A stretch of 52,218 nucleotides of DNA from Pseudomonadota bacterium (GTDB lineage Bacteria; Pseudomonadota; Alphaproteobacteria; Rhizobiales; Beijerinckiaceae), in assembly GCA_021777915.1 (NCBI GenBank), contig JAJYCZ010000003.1, positions 1-52,218 of the forward strand, read 5' to 3'. Within the stretch, counting starts at the first letter, position 1. Every line of letters begins with the position of its first letter. The notes below the pieces were generated by a model. It worked only from the letters and a program-made list of their open reading frames with translations. It did not search any database and was not told the DNA's origin. Made by a program: the position numbers and the translations under genes. Below are positions 16,174-24,865 of the stretch, in pieces.

Positions 16174-16419
16174 ATGCGCCAAGTCAACATCCACGAAGCC
16201 AAGACCCATCTGTCCCGCCTGGTCGAACAGGCGGCGGCGGGGGAGTCCTTCGTCATCGCCAAGGCGGGCAAGCCGCTGGTGAAGGTGACCGCGCTCGCCG
16301 CGCCGGAGGCGAAGGCGATGCGCCGAACGGGTTTCTTGGCCGGAGAAATCGCCGTGCCGGAGGATTTCGACCGGATGGGGGCGGAAACAATCGAAAAAAT
16401 GTTCGGCGGCGAGGCGTGA
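16174..16419 (+). CDS. Phd/YefM-type antitoxin
   Basis: MRQVNIHEAKTHLSRLVEQAAAGESFVIAKAGKPLVKVTAL; overlaps the downstream PIN toxin. Confidence 0.92.
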   Translation: MRQVNIHEAKTHLSRLVEQAAAGESFVIAKAGKPLVKVTALAAPEAKAMRRTGFLAGEIAVPEDFDRMGAETIEKMFGGEA

Positions 16420-16802
16420 AAGTCCTTCTCGACACCCATTTGCTGCTCTGGGCGGCTGGCGCGCCCGAAAAACTCCCTGACGCCGCGCGAAAAATCATCG
16501 AGGACCCGGGCGTCGAACTGTGGTTCAGCGCCGCCAGCCTGTGGGAAATCGCCATCAAGCGCGGGCTCGGGCGTGCGGATTTTCGCGTCGATCCGCGCCT
16601 GCTGCGGCGCGGCCTCGCCGAAAACGGCTATGTCGAACTGGCGGTCACGGGCGCCCACGCCGTCGCCGTCGACCTTCTGCCGCCTTTGCACAAGGACCCG
16701 TTCGACCGCATGCTGGTCGCCCAGGCCATTGCGGAATCGATCACGCTTCTGACCGGCGACGCGCTGGTGGCGCAATATCCGGGGCCAATCCGGCAGGTTT
16801 GA
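16416..16802 (+). CDS. VapC-like PIN-domain toxin
   Basis: KVLLDTHLLLWAAGAPEKLP...SAASLWEIAIKRGLG...PPLHKDPFDRMLVAQAIAESITLLTGD; GTG start overlaps the antitoxin stop. Confidence 0.92.
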   Translation: MKVLLDTHLLLWAAGAPEKLPDAARKIIEDPGVELWFSAASLWEIAIKRGLGRADFRVDPRLLRRGLAENGYVELAVTGAHAVAVDLLPPLHKDPFDRMLVAQAIAESITLLTGDALVAQYPGPIRQV

Positions 16803-16971: not shown

Positions 16972-18402
16972 TCAGCCGGCGCGGGCAGCCGCTTCCTTCT
17001 CCAACGCCGCGACAAAATCGTCGATGTCCTCGCGGCGGGTGCGGTGATTGACCACGGCGCAGCGGATCACCGGCTCGCCGTTCAGCATGGTCAGGGATGG
17101 GGCGGCGGCGCCGGAGAGATGCAGGTTTTCGACCAACGAGCGGTTGCGCGGGCCGGGGTTTTCGCCGCGCAGACCGAAACAGACGATGTTCAGGGTCACC
17201 GGCGCCTTGACCTCGAATTTTTCGCCTTCGCTCAGGCGTTGCGCGAGATAAAACGCGAGATCGCACGTGTCCTCGATGGAGCGGCCGAGCGCCTCGGTTC
17301 CGAACACTTTTATTGTGAACCAGACCTTGAGCGCCTGAAAGCCGCGCGAGAGATCGGGTCCGTAATCGCAGGGCCAGAAGTCGCCCGCCGCGAGGCCGCG
17401 CGCCGCCCGCGTCAGATAGGCGTTGGAGCTGACAAAAGTCTTTTTCTGCATCGCGCCGTCGCGGGTGAGGAGAAAACCCGCCGAATAGGGAACCTGACCC
17501 CATTTATGGAAATCGAAGGCGATCGAATCGGCGCGCTCCAGGCCCTTCAATAACGGCGCGAGGCGGGGCGAAAAAGCGGCGAGCGCGCCGAAGGCCCCAT
17601 CGACATGAAACCAGATTTTTTCTTGCGCCGCGAGATCGGCCATCTCAATCAACGGGTCGAGCGCGCCGAGATTGACCGTGCCCGCCGTCCCGACCAACAG
17701 GAACGGCGTCGCGCCCCGCGCCCGATCCTCCGCGATCATCGCCCGCAGAGCTTCAACCTGCACGGCGCCGTCCGGGCCACAGGGCGCGCGGCGCAGATTG
17801 TCGGAGCCTATGCCCGCCATTTCCATCGCCTGGGCGATGCAGCCATGGGCGGCTTCGGACGTATACGCGCGAAGCTTGAGGGACGCCGGCGCGCCGGAGC
17901 GCCGGACTTCGTCGCCCAACAGGGCGAAGCGGGCGATCAGAACCGCGAGGAAATTGGCCATCGAGGTCCCGGTGACGAAAAGCCCGGCGGAAGTTTCGGG
18001 AAAGCCGAAAGCCTGGCGCATCCAGTGCGTGATCTGGCGCTCGACCTCGACGCCGATGTGGTCGCGGCCGCCGCAATTGGCGTTGAGCCCCGCGCTGAGC
18101 ATTTCCGCGACCATGCCGACCGGCGTCCCGGCGCCATGAACCCAGCCCATGAAGGCGGGATGGAGATTGCCGGTGGAATAAGGCTTGATCGCCTCGTCGA
18201 AAATTTCGAGCGCCTCGGCGAGAGAAGCGCCTTTTTGCGGCAGGTCGGCCGCGAAGCGCGCGCGGATTTCCGCCGGCGCGGGGGTCCAGACCGGACGCTC
18301 CCGCACTGTCCTGATATGGTCGATCATGCCGTCCAGCGCCTCATGGGCGAGGGCGCGGAATTCTTCCCAGTCGTCAGGGTCGAGCTCTGAGCCCGCCGTC
18401 AC
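16972..18402 (-). CDS. pyridoxal-dependent decarboxylase (aromatic-L-amino-acid decarboxylase-like)
   Basis: PAFMGWVHGAGTPVGMVAEMLSAGLNANCGGRDHIGVEVERQITHWM; WFHVDGAFGALAAFSP; SIAFDFHKWGQVPYSAGFLLTRD (PLP Lys). Confidence 0.9.
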   Translation of the reverse strand: MTAGSELDPDDWEEFRALAHEALDGMIDHIRTVRERPVWTPAPAEIRARFAADLPQKGASLAEALEIFDEAIKPYSTGNLHPAFMGWVHGAGTPVGMVAEMLSAGLNANCGGRDHIGVEVERQITHWMRQAFGFPETSAGLFVTGTSMANFLAVLIARFALLGDEVRRSGAPASLKLRAYTSEAAHGCIAQAMEMAGIGSDNLRRAPCGPDGAVQVEALRAMIAEDRARGATPFLLVGTAGTVNLGALDPLIEMADLAAQEKIWFHVDGAFGALAAFSPRLAPLLKGLERADSIAFDFHKWGQVPYSAGFLLTRDGAMQKKTFVSSNAYLTRAARGLAAGDFWPCDYGPDLSRGFQALKVWFTIKVFGTEALGRSIEDTCDLAFYLAQRLSEGEKFEVKAPVTLNIVCFGLRGENPGPRNRSLVENLHLSGAAAPSLTMLNGEPVIRCAVVNHRTRREDIDDFVAALEKEAAARAG

Positions 18403-19667
18403 GAAGCCGCCCTGACGCGGGGCGCGGCGCGGCGGCGCAGCATGTCCTGGAAGGCGGAGAAAATTTTCGTCATCTGCGGCGGCTTGTAAGGAAAGAGGTG
18501 TTGCGGATCGAGCGCATGGATGATCATCGCCGTCCCGGCCTCGAAGATCAACAGTTCGCCGTCGCGGGTCTCGGCGCAGTCGAGCAGGACGTAATCGAGC
18601 CCGGCGCGCCGCGTGACCTCCTCGAAAGCGCGCGCATGGCGGCGGGCGAAACCGGCGTTGAAATTCGCCATGAAACGCGCCTCCTCCGCGCGGTGGGCGG
18701 GATTGTCCATCATGTCGGCGTTGAGATAATGGACCATCCAGCGCGGCGAGACCGCCATGTGGACGGGATGAGGCGCGCCTTCGATCAGGACGACGCGCGT
18801 TTTGCGGAAAAGCCCGTCCGCGCCGCTGTAATCGACAAAGGGCGCGACATAATGGGCCGGGCCATCGGTTTCGGCGAGATAAAGATCGAGATCGGAACGG
18901 TTTTCGATCTTGCGCAGGCCGTCCCCGGCATGAGAGCCGGCTGGCCGGGCGATGAAGGGAAACCCCATCCCCTCGATTTTCGCCAGCGCCGCCCGTTCGA
19001 GCCGGCGCGTCGGCGGGACAAGAACGCCGGGCGCGTCGCGCATGAGGACGGAAAAGCCGTCGCGGGTCAGGGCGGCGATCTTTTCGGGGGCGTTGACCAG
19101 CGGGCGCGGCCAGAAGGGCGCCGCCGCCGCGAGTTTTTGCAGCAGCGGCAGATTGGCGTCGGATTCCGCGACCGCGACAAAGGCGATGTCGTGCTCGGGA
19201 AGCTTTTCGGGCAAAGGCTCGTCGGGCGGAAGATAAAGCGCGTCGAGGGCGACGTCGCTGTGTTCGAGCAGGAATTCCAGCGGCGTATTGGCCATGAAAT
19301 CGCCCGGCGCCGTCAGGGCGAGCAGGCGCAGGGGCGCTTCCGCCCTCTGTGCGTGGGTGAAATGGCGGGCGCGGCGCAAGGCGTCGGCCTGGAGCGCGAT
19401 GCGATTGGCGCCGTTGCCCAGCACCTGCTGGACCGTCGAAAGATCGAGCCAGGCCGCCGCGTCGTCACTGTTCCGCTCGATCCGCGCGACGAGTTGGGAA
19501 ACGACGGCTGTGAAATCGCCGCCCTGCATGGCGTGGCGGGTGATCGCCGCGAGACCGGCCAAAGGCGCCGAGGTCGTCGCGACGCCGGAATTGGAAATCG
19601 AAAAACGCAAAAAACTCTCCCTCGTTTCGCCGCCCGTCACGGGCGCGCGTTCAACAAAAAGGTCCAT
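18399..19667 (-). CDS. ATP-grasp domain protein with helical (TPR-like) N-terminal part
   Basis: FPFIARPAGSHAGDGLRKIENRSDLDLYLAETDGPAHYVAPFVDYSGADGLFRKTRVVLIEG...ARRHARAFEEVTRRAGLDYVLLDCAETRDGELLIFEAGTAM resembles RimK/glutathione-synthase-type ATP-grasp. 4-bp overlap with the downstream decarboxylase. Start MDLFVERAP chosen over the longer ORF. Confidence 0.75.
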   Translation of the reverse strand: MDLFVERAPVTGGETRESFLRFSISNSGVATTSAPLAGLAAITRHAMQGGDFTAVVSQLVARIERNSDDAAAWLDLSTVQQVLGNGANRIALQADALRRARHFTHAQRAEAPLRLLALTAPGDFMANTPLEFLLEHSDVALDALYLPPDEPLPEKLPEHDIAFVAVAESDANLPLLQKLAAAAPFWPRPLVNAPEKIAALTRDGFSVLMRDAPGVLVPPTRRLERAALAKIEGMGFPFIARPAGSHAGDGLRKIENRSDLDLYLAETDGPAHYVAPFVDYSGADGLFRKTRVVLIEGAPHPVHMAVSPRWMVHYLNADMMDNPAHRAEEARFMANFNAGFARRHARAFEEVTRRAGLDYVLLDCAETRDGELLIFEAGTAMIIHALDPQHLFPYKPPQMTKIFSAFQDMLRRRAAPRVRAAS

Positions 19668-21106
19668 TTGGCGAACAGAGCCGAGAGATCGGCGGCAAGA
19701 GGCGCCAGCGCGCGTTCGAACGGAACGCCCGAGGCATGGAGCGCGGCAATGTCGCTGATCGTCGGCGCGCCGAGGCAGACCCGCAGGGCCTGATCCGGTC
19801 CGACGGCCACCGCCTGGCCGACATGAAAGATGCGCGCGGCATTGCCCCAGGCGCCGGCCGGCCGCCGCAGGGCGCGCTGGAGCCCAGCCGCCTGTTCGGC
19901 CGAACCAGGCGCGGCGATGGACAGGATGGTCCGCGCCCAGTCCGATCCTTCGCTCGGCTCGTCGAGGAGTCTCAGCCCGGCCCGGCGGGCGCGCTCGACC
20001 GCGAGCATGCGAAAATCCCGCGCGATGTTTTCGGCGAGCGCCGGAGGAACAGCGGCAAAAGACTCCATTTCCGCGAGCGCGGCCTCCCAGCGCAGGCCGA
20101 GCCCGATATTGGCGTGACTGGCGAAACCTTCCGAGCCGGCGCGCAGAAAGGCAGGCCAGTCGTAAAGAGCGGTTTGCGCGGCCAGTCCCTCGGGCAAGCG
20201 AAAATTTTTCAGCCGCGCGCGCAAAATTTCTGGAAGGAGCAGCGCGCCGCATAAGGGCGGTCCGCAGAAAAATTTGGAGCCGGTGACCGCGACCAGAAAG
20301 CCGCAATCGAGCAACTCGCCGACGCGCGATGGCGGCCCGCGCATCTGACAGCAATCGGCCAGCACGAAAATCTTTTCGGGCGCGCGGGCGCGCAAATCCA
20401 GCGCCGCGGCGCGGGAGAAACCGGAAAGGCCGGTCTTGGACACGTCGAGCAGGTGGGCGATGACGGCGCGGTTTTCCGCCAAAGCGGCCTCGGCCCTGGC
20501 GCGGACCTCGGCGTCCACGGCGCCGGCCGGGCGGGCGGAACCGTCCGGGTTTCGGATTTCGACGGTCTCGACCGCGATGTCATGATCTTCCCAGCCAGAG
20601 AGCCGGCCGCGGGGTGCTGACGACTGGAAATGCAGGCCGCCCGCCGCCAGCGGAACGCCGCGCCCGGTCTCGCCCGGTCCAACCACGATATTGGTGAGCG
20701 GCCGGGCCGCCGCATCGTCCGCGATCGCCAGCGCCACCAATTCGGCGTCGGCGCCCGAGGCGGTCAGGATCGCCTCGCCCGCCCCGGTGAAAGCGGCGAT
20801 GCGGCGACGAATGTCTTCGAACCAGGCGGGAAAGTTCTGGCGCTCACGCGGGTCGTCGGAACTGAGCCGCCGCCACGCCGTTGCGGCGGCTCGCCAGCCG
20901 CGCGGGGCGATCGCGGAAGCGGTCGAGGAGGAAAAGAAGGTTTCGTCCGGGGCGGGCGGCGCGGTCAGGCCGTAACGATTGCGTCCGCTGACCGGATCGG
21001 CGGCGAGGCGCTCATCGCCGCCGGAGACAAGCGCGGCGGCAAGGCTCGCGTCGCGTGCGCGCCTCGGTTCGCCCGGCGCGGGGGTCCTTGTCGCGGTGAG
21101 AAGCAT
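19637..21106 (-). CDS. class-V aminotransferase-fold PLP-dependent enzyme
   Basis: TASGADAELVAL, VIAHLLDVSKTGLSGF, KIFVLADCCQMRGPP, LVAVTGSKFFCGPPLCGALLLPEI (candidate PLP Lys in GSKFF). Overlaps the ATP-grasp start by about 31 bp. Confidence 0.72.
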   Translation of the reverse strand: MLLTATRTPAPGEPRRARDASLAAALVSGGDERLAADPVSGRNRYGLTAPPAPDETFFSSSTASAIAPRGWRAAATAWRRLSSDDPRERQNFPAWFEDIRRRIAAFTGAGEAILTASGADAELVALAIADDAAARPLTNIVVGPGETGRGVPLAAGGLHFQSSAPRGRLSGWEDHDIAVETVEIRNPDGSARPAGAVDAEVRARAEAALAENRAVIAHLLDVSKTGLSGFSRAAALDLRARAPEKIFVLADCCQMRGPPSRVGELLDCGFLVAVTGSKFFCGPPLCGALLLPEILRARLKNFRLPEGLAAQTALYDWPAFLRAGSEGFASHANIGLGLRWEAALAEMESFAAVPPALAENIARDFRMLAVERARRAGLRLLDEPSEGSDWARTILSIAAPGSAEQAAGLQRALRRPAGAWGNAARIFHVGQAVAVGPDQALRVCLGAPTISDIAALHASGVPFERALAPLAADLSALFAKWTFLLNARP

Positions 21107-21181: not shown

Positions 21182-21745
21182 TCAGGCTGTCGGAGAAGGC
21201 TTCCACTTGATCGAGCAGCCGATCGACGGCGTCTGATCGGCCGGGATTTCATTGGCCGCCGCGATCCCGCGCATGGCGACGAGCAATTCACGGCGCGCGC
21301 CGGGCGGCGGCGGGTCCCTGCGGCCCTCGTCCAGACGGCCGCGATATTTCAGCTGGCCGTCGGCGCCATAGCCGAAAAAATCCGGGGTGCAGACGGCGCC
21401 ATAGGCCCGCGCGACCTGCTGCGATTCGTCGTGCAGATAGGGGAAGGGCAGCGCGTGCTGCTGGGCAAATTCCTTCATCTTGGGAAACGAATCGTCGGGA
21501 TAGGCCGCGGCGTCGTTGGAGCAGATGGCGGCGAAGCCGATCCCCTCCGCCATCAGCGCGCGGGCGTCCTTCACCAGGCGGTCGAGAACCGCGAGCACAT
21601 AGGGGCAATGATTGCAGATGAAGACGACCACGGTTCCTTTCGGGCCGGCGATATCGGCGAAGGCATAGGTCTTGCCGTCGACGCCGGGCAGGGAAAAAGC
21701 GGGCGCCGGAATATCCAGCTCGATGTCGGTGGGACTGGCGGCCAT
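21182..21745 (-). CDS. thioredoxin/redoxin family protein
   Basis: PAFSLPGVDGKTYAFADIAGPKGTVVVFICNHCPYVLAVLDRL; C-terminal PSIGCSIKWK. Confidence 0.88.
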   Translation of the reverse strand: MAASPTDIELDIPAPAFSLPGVDGKTYAFADIAGPKGTVVVFICNHCPYVLAVLDRLVKDARALMAEGIGFAAICSNDAAAYPDDSFPKMKEFAQQHALPFPYLHDESQQVARAYGAVCTPDFFGYGADGQLKYRGRLDEGRRDPPPPGARRELLVAMRGIAAANEIPADQTPSIGCSIKWKPSPTA

Positions 21746-21756
21746 CAAGCGCTCCA

Positions 21757-21769
21757 ATATTCGGAATAT
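21757..21769. promoter_or_regulatory. inverted repeat ATATTC-g-GAATAT (within CCAATATTCGGAATATCGG)
   Basis: Directly upstream of the redoxin start; palindrome read from sequence. Confidence 0.35.
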
Positions 21770-21857
21770 CGGTGAGATTGGCCTTTTCCGCATGGGGAAT
21801 CAACCCATCGCGCCGTGAGCTGCGATGCAGAACGCCATTCGAGTAATCGGAAAAGCA

Positions 21858-21879
21858 GATTAAAAAATCATTTTTAATC
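21858..21879. promoter_or_regulatory. candidate operator in the redoxin-katG divergent intergenic region
   Basis: GATTAAAAA-atca-TTTTTAATC, 9-bp perfect arms in an otherwise GC-rich genome. Confidence 0.45.
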
Positions 21880-21926
21880 GGTTGGCGTGCAATCGCCGGC
21901 CCGTGTCACTGTATCGCCAGCATTGA

Positions 21927-24176
<2,250 letters not shown>

Positions 24177-24201
24177 CCGGCGCGGAGACTCCGGAAATGC
24201 A

Positions 24202-24238
24202 GGGCGGCGTTCCACGATGATCTGGAAAGCCGCCTTTC
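24202..24238 (+). terminator. terminator downstream of katG
   Basis: GGCGGC-g-TTCCA...TGGAA-a-GCCGCC hairpin followed by TTTCCTT. Confidence 0.55.
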
Positions 24239-24310
24239 CTTGTCGAAAAGGTCAAACTTTCGGACGCTCCGGCGCGTAGACTATGAGTCGAAACGCCGGA
24301 AAGGGGACGC

Positions 24311-24865
24311 ATGATGAAAAAGCTGGTCGCAGGAGTGCTCGTCGGCCTGCTGTGCGCGACCGCGAGCCGGGCGGAAATGAAGGCCGGCGCCATGGCGCCC
24401 GATTTCACCCTTCAGGCCGCCGTCGGCGGCAAGACCTTTTCCTTCCATCTCGCCGAGGCGCTGAAGAAGGGCCCGGTGGTGCTTTATTTCTATCCCAAGT
24501 CCTTCACCCCCGGCTGCACGATCGAGGCGCATGAATTCGCCGAGAACGCGGCCAATTTCGCGGAAGCGGGCGCGAGCCTGATCGGCGTCTCGAACGACAC
24601 GATGGCGACCCAGATCGATTTTTCCTCGCGCGAATGCCGCGACAAATTCCCGGTCGGCGCCGATTCCGACGGCAAGGTCATTCGCGCCTATGATTCGCAG
24701 ATGCTGAAGCTCGGCGGGCTGGGGCCGTCGATGGCGAGCCGGGTTTCCTACGTCATCGCGCCGGACGGCCGGATTCTTTATGTCTACGAGGATTCCTCGC
24801 CCTACAGGCATATCGCCAACAGCCTGGCGGTCGTGCGCAAGTGGCGGGCGGATCATCCGAATTGA
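24311..24865 (+). CDS. exported peroxiredoxin (AhpC/TSA, Bcp-like)
   Basis: Signal-like MMKKLVAGVLVGLLCATASRA; MAPDFTLQAAVGGKTFSFHLAEALKKGPVVLYFYPKSFTPGCTIEAHEFAEN. Confidence 0.9.
   Translation: MMKKLVAGVLVGLLCATASRAEMKAGAMAPDFTLQAAVGGKTFSFHLAEALKKGPVVLYFYPKSFTPGCTIEAHEFAENAANFAEAGASLIGVSNDTMATQIDFSSRECRDKFPVGADSDGKVIRAYDSQMLKLGGLGPSMASRVSYVIAPDGRILYVYEDSSPYRHIANSLAVVRKWRADHPN

Follow-up and report, generated by a model that had tools for sequence, protein, structure and literature searches.

We analysed a 52,218-nucleotide stretch of DNA (the window: contig JAJYCZ010000003.1 of assembly GCA_021777915.1, positions 1 to 52,218) from a metagenome-assembled genome (MAG) of the alphaproteobacterial family Beijerinckiaceae, and focused on a minus-strand operon of three genes. 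These encode a fold-type I pyridoxal phosphate (PLP)-dependent enzyme (V), a protein with tetratricopeptide repeat (TPR)-like helices followed by an ATP-grasp domain (G), and a group II PLP decarboxylase (D). Our results indicate that V, G and D are a real, conserved and co-evolving set whose arrangement goes beyond chance, and that G is tied to flagella, as in independent lineages it shares genomes with flagellar genes and lies next to them. We propose that the operon serves to decorate the flagellum through amide bonds, with V and D supplying an amine for G to amide-link to a flagellar protein or its glycan, a reading that we regard as evenly poised between right and wrong.

Conservation of the three genes

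A scan of GTDB species genomes, in which the query was the closer subset of relatives, the wider alignment being too divergent, returned 512 relatives of G, and the best 80 were kept with flanks of up to 10 kb. D adjoined G in 66 of these best 80 loci and V lay near G in 50, the usual order being D-G-V, and the loci came from Alpha-, Beta- and Gammaproteobacteria, Planctomycetota, Geobacter and one Riflebacteria MAG. A plasmid of Rhizobium tumorigenes carries the genes as a G-V-D operon. Within the window's own family, represented by 199 genomes, G was found in 31, V in 26 and a close D in 43, and the pairs shared genomes (G-V, 18, p=1e-11; G-D, 23, p=4e-12; V-D, 22, p=1e-13), counts that include some V paralogues without the PLP lysine and come from genomes that are not independent. 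All three genes were present in 17 of the 199 genomes and linked in four only, and all seven genera of the family with V are among the ten with G. The pairwise divergences of V, G and D were also correlated (Mantel r 0.72-0.82 over 42 complete loci), with a contribution from species relatedness.

The first-pass annotation of this DNA, made from the letters of the window, had named a lack of conserved co-occurrence as a refutation of its reading of the trio; instead, the trio co-occurs across phyla, and in the family it also does so unlinked. The set matches no named pathway, as had been suspected, and no description of it was found in the open-access papers searched.

Association of G with flagellar genes

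Flagellar genes were found near G in 35 of 93 loci of at least 8 kb, as compared with 2 of 40 control 20-kb regions from G-carrying genomes of the family (p=5e-5), a comparison that somewhat favours G because the 14 flagellar profiles were built from neighbour clusters of these loci; one of the two control matches is weak and probably reflects an F1-ATPase score. The same profiles gave no match in 19 V/D loci that lack G. Neighbour checks with Pfam, which are free of the profile bias, confirmed FlgM, FlgN, FlgA, FliK, an FlhB C-terminal protein, flagellin, FlgK, FlaG and CheX beside G in different lineages, in addition to an FlgE/F/G-family protein, a FliI-type ATPase (T3SS_ATPase_C) and a TPR protein with a weak match to glycosyltransferase family 9 (GT9). 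Among the family genomes, the flagellar rod/hook family PF00460 was detected in 30 of the 31 that carry G and in 126 of the 168 that do not (p=0.004). It was also present in all 50 distant G genomes tested, a figure that overstates independence, since most of them belong to the Proteobacteria, a group in which flagella are common.

Several observations weigh against a flagellar role for the operon as a whole. It is G that has the flagellar link, and V and D alone do not show it: D occurs in 9 family genomes without detected G or PF00460, three genomes of genus g22 (G165, G178 and G191, 81-84% complete) hold V and D with neither G nor flagellar genes, and on rhizobial plasmids relatives of V adjoin non-ribosomal peptide synthetase (NRPS) genes (Sinorhizobium medicae) or D-amino-acid/peptide genes, among them D-aminopeptidase genes (Neorhizobium). 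In view of these occurrences, the role of V and D may be broader, and G may act as a flagellar recruiter.

The same occurrences favour the alternative that the operon makes a free amide-type small molecule (a signal, an osmolyte or a siderophore-like compound) and travels with motile environmental bacteria while the flagellum remains unmodified. GGDEF or EAL genes are recurrent neighbours, and ATP-grasp ligases often act on small molecules, which would also suit such a product. However, no conserved neighbour of the trio was seen to encode a transporter, a receptor or an export protein, the linkage of G to flagellar genes recurs across unrelated lineages, and the TPR domain points to a protein as the partner of G, so that we consider a free product unlikely, although the strongest of the competing explanations. 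The first-pass annotation had offered both possibilities; its suggestion that the set might modify a peptide or protein tail fits the flagellar link better than its idea of a free small-molecule system.

The operon of the window itself also counts on the negative side, as no flagellar genes lie near it and none were found in the window's MAG with PF00669, PF00460 or PF00771, this MAG being the sole exception for PF00460 among the 31 G-positive family genomes. Another contig of the MAG (C236; G000, L234) is colinear with contig C81 of the sister genome G033 (L226-L228) and stops about 1.2 kb short of flgE in the sister's 40-kb flagellar cluster. The cluster is therefore probably missing from the bin rather than deleted, although this is not proof, and we did not adopt the view that the window's genome truly lacks a flagellum, since a colinear contig that stops at the cluster edge suggests that a contig is missing. 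With no flagellar genes in the window, the association was invisible in the first-pass annotation.

Predicted properties of G

The structures of G and V were modelled with AlphaFold2 from alignments of each protein's own relatives. The model of G (predicted local distance difference test, pLDDT, 91.9) showed a helical TPR-like N-terminus followed by an ATP-grasp fold, with LysX/ArgX (5k2m, 3vpd) and the D-Ala-D-Ala ligases (Ddl) as best solved matches in Foldseek; 453 PDB structures matched at E<=0.001, the top ones being ATP-grasp ligases, and a viral structure library gave generic ATP-grasp proteins only. In agreement with the model, a profile search matched TPR proteins at positions ~19-95 and, weakly (E 0.0015), a RimK/LysX entry at ~167-305, and residues R241, K289, D363 and E376 are conserved in 75-77 of 77 aligned G proteins, as befits a member of the ATP-grasp superfamily. 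The earlier description of an ATP-grasp protein with a helical N-terminus was thus borne out, the modelled fold being that of a RimK/LysX-like carboxylate-amine ligase. G matched no Pfam or NCBIfam family, and no ATP-grasp Pfam model even up to E=10, among them ATP-grasp_4 (PF13535), to which SfmE and CDR20291_0245 (see below) belong. In the model G resembles LysX by fold, but by sequence profile it is not a member of the RimK/LysX family.

ATP-grasp ligases with the LysX/RimK fold are established to couple amines to carboxylates, and LysX/ArgX and RimK ligate amino acids to protein glutamate. In fold, these enzymes match the ATP-grasp part of G best, but they share only 16-20% identity with it and have no TPR domain, and the LysW carrier and lysine/arginine pathway genes of LysX/ArgX were not seen near G.

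Some copies of G depart from this pattern. Those of genus g42 (L019-L022 and L025; for example L157:8267-9475 and L158:7810-9018) have lost the glycine-loop motif and carry E376K, and several lie inside flagellar clusters; from their sequences they are apparent pseudo-ATP-grasp proteins. V is absent from most g42 genomes while D is kept, so that loss of V and predicted loss of G catalysis tend to go together in this genus. A second, very divergent TPR/ATP-grasp relative (24% identity) adjoins the trio in a Nitrosomonadales MAG (L114:13311-14570, minus strand). The G of a record titled as a Klebsiella pneumoniae MAG (L132) groups with betaproteobacterial sequences, and the title is probably a submission mislabel.

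Predicted properties of V and D

V was modelled with a pLDDT of 94.0 and has the PLP fold type I (Foldseek probability 1.00), its nearest matches being BioF, SHMT, SufS and a C-S lyase at 12-18% identity, with no close subfamily. The likely PLP lysine is K278, which lies in a TGSKF motif and is conserved in at least 90% of the rows of the V alignment, and an ADCCQ motif holds D251 and Q254. No Pfam (up to E=10), NCBIfam or PDB sequence match was obtained for V, the PDB search by sequence giving chance hits only, and the class V aminotransferase model (PF00266) was not matched within the same Pfam limit; of the earlier label 'class-V PLP enzyme', the fold type therefore stands, while class V in the strict sense does not and is approximate only. 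In two loci of different betaproteobacterial families, L182 (9938-12303, on a plasmid of Paraburkholderia sp. FT54) and L116 (9992-12342), a class-V (SerC-like) aminotransferase directly follows G in place of V, with a PF00266 match in L116. This replacement fits an aminotransfer role for V, and the amine could derive from a serine-like precursor.

Eight V paralogues (L050, L051, L053, L054, L055, L058, L059 and L060, in genomes G158, G184, G119, G155, G028, G123, G197 and G033, respectively) have the TGSKF motif replaced, mostly by SGSTF, and are by their sequence probably not PLP enzymes; some of these genomes also carry a normal V elsewhere. On S. medicae plasmid pWSM1115_3 (L185, 8938-10473), a V relative lies immediately downstream of the genes for an NRPS and an AMP-binding protein, in an unassigned natural-product cluster that has a nitroreductase and a 4'-phosphopantetheinyl transferase nearby.

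D belongs to the family Pyridoxal_deC (PF00282; E=5e-57, 193.7 bits against a cutoff of 27), and the alignment of its relatives keeps the catalytic residues H186 (the stacking His), D268, K300 (the PLP lysine, in HKW) and Y329 of the catalytic loop, in accordance with the AADC (aromatic amino acid decarboxylase)-like assignment of the first-pass annotation. Its nearest relatives in the PDB are tryptophan, DOPA and tyrosine decarboxylases; the group II aromatic amino acid/tryptophan decarboxylases 4obu, 7xin and 1js3 have the same catalytic His, Asp, Lys and loop Tyr and are homologous to D over the full length. D nevertheless forms its own subfamily, marked by an invariant NxNxGGR stretch (N107-R113), and scored below the cutoff of every named-decarboxylase equivalog in NCBIfam (DABA, MfnA, PanP, TyrDC and GAD), the best being NF052646 with 156 bits against a cutoff of 900. 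The segment of AADC that NxNxGGR replaces helps to form the aromatic pocket, and we did not adopt aromatic amino acids as the substrate of D, because the invariant stretch sits where AADC has part of that pocket.

Proposed role of the operon

A close parallel in pathway logic is the amidation of the Campylobacter jejuni capsule, for which the PLP decarboxylase Cj1436 and the PLP aminotransferase Cj1437 lead to small amines (ethanolamine-P and serinol-P) and the C-terminal ATP-dependent amide ligase of Cj1438 amidates a carboxylate (PMC11800397). The systems differ in that the capsular target is glucuronate, the C. jejuni ligase is fused to a glycosyltransferase family 2 (GT2) domain and not to TPR, and the pathway is completed by the phosphatase Cj1435, no counterpart of which was seen beside the trio. 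ATP-grasp proteins are also known from flagellin modification. In Shewanella oneidensis, SfmE (SO_3265, ATP-grasp_4, 412 aa) belongs to the flagellin-modification operon sfmABCDE and its loss shifts the flagellin mass (PMC3765264); G differs in matching no Pfam ATP-grasp model, and the description of the sfm operon lists a PseI-like protein, a reductase and a methyltransferase, with no mention of a decarboxylase or an aminotransferase (PMC3765264). In Clostridioides difficile, type B flagellin modification involves CDR20291_0245 (ATP-grasp) and 0246; 0245 is co-transcribed with the modification genes and flagellin is altered in the mutant, but it belongs to another ATP-grasp family (PF13535 in the paper) and has other partners (PMC5207246).

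By analogy with Cj1436-Cj1438, we infer that V and D would produce an amine from an amino acid or from a phosphorylated or keto precursor of it, and that G, as a LysX/RimK-like ligase with a TPR docking domain, would spend ATP to join this amine to a carboxylate of a flagellar component, with flagellin or its glycan a more likely acceptor than any other part of the flagellum. A specific form of this proposal, which we put forward tentatively and think unlikely, is that TPR-docked G amide-links the amine directly to carboxylate side chains of flagellin, as a widespread and undescribed modification extending from Proteobacteria to Planctomycetota and Riflebacteria.

In another version of the proposal, G may act as Cj1438 does in the capsule and decorate a carboxylate on a glycan instead of a protein side chain, the acceptor being a uronic or nonulosonic acid in the glycan of flagellin or in some other surface polysaccharide. 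The combination of PLP aminotransferase, PLP decarboxylase and amide ligase argues for such a target, as do the two loci with a SerC-like aminotransferase after G, and in L062/L144 and L131 TPR proteins, one with the weak GT9 match, are encoded next to G or the trio. Set against this, the neighbours of the trio showed no conserved sugar-nucleotide genes, the resemblance to the C. jejuni enzymes is one of pathway logic, and the LysX/RimK fold has a precedent for protein substrates, which leaves a glycan target as doubtful as direct attachment to flagellin. Finally, the g42 copies in flagellar clusters, which lack the metal-binding Glu and the glycine-loop motif in genomes mostly without V, could suggest that G serves chiefly in flagellar assembly, as a chaperone or assembly factor acting through its TPR domain, with a secondary ATP-grasp activity and with V and D in a separate amine pathway, but this is improbable given that the ATP-grasp residues persist in 75 of the 77 G proteins aligned and that shared chemistry is favoured by the co-occurrence of G with V and with D and by the tight spacing of the operon.

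Organization of the locus

The three minus-strand open reading frames reported in the first-pass annotation are all present at the place it gave (Table 1), as is its 4 bp overlap between G and D; a spacing of -4 is the commonest between D and G among the relatives. Its 31-bp overlap between V and G is probably not real, as it requires translation of G to begin at the ATG at 19667. This ATG has no Shine-Dalgarno sequence, the corresponding ATG is out of frame in the relative G123, and the AlphaFold2 model of the long form shows disorder over its first 14 residues (pLDDT<50), whereas the window, G033 and G123 share a strong Shine-Dalgarno sequence (GAGGGAGAG, GAAGGAGAG and AAAGGAGAG, respectively) followed by a TTG at the same place. 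From sequence and model together, G therefore most likely starts at this TTG, 26 bp past the V stop.

Table 1. Features of the operon in the window
Feature	Position	Strand	Description
V	19637..21106	minus	Fold-type I PLP-dependent enzyme, 489 aa
G	18399..19610	minus	TPR-like helices (N-terminal) and ATP-grasp (C-terminal), 403 aa from TTG 19610
G, alternative start	ATG at 19667	minus	422 aa
Putative Shine-Dalgarno of G, GAGGGAGAG	19615..19623	minus	Upstream of the TTG start, conserved in two relatives; predicted from sequence
D	16972..18402	minus	Group II (AADC-like) PLP decarboxylase, 476 aa, GTG start
G/D stop/start overlap, GTGA	18399..18402	minus	4 bp, consistent with translational coupling

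A Phd/YefM-type antitoxin and PIN-domain toxin pair lies just downstream of the operon and convergent with it (16174-16802, plus strand). Upstream of V, the region 21182-24865 holds a Redoxin gene (minus strand), followed by the catalase-peroxidase gene katG and a second peroxiredoxin gene (both plus strand); KatG and the second peroxiredoxin are also encoded near the trio in the sister genomes G033 and G123.

Significance

Filament assembly, motility, adhesion and immune recognition are all controlled by the modification of flagellin, for which sugars or methyl groups account for most of the known cases; a flagellar modification of the kind proposed here has probably not yet been described. 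The module is carried by cultured genera including Duganella, Janthinobacterium, Cupriavidus, Methylobacter and Methylocystis. If our proposal is true, it would mean a new chemistry on the flagellar surface, brought about by a conserved module with a predicted amide-forming step that contains two protein families without a Pfam or NCBIfam model and is found in hundreds of genomes.

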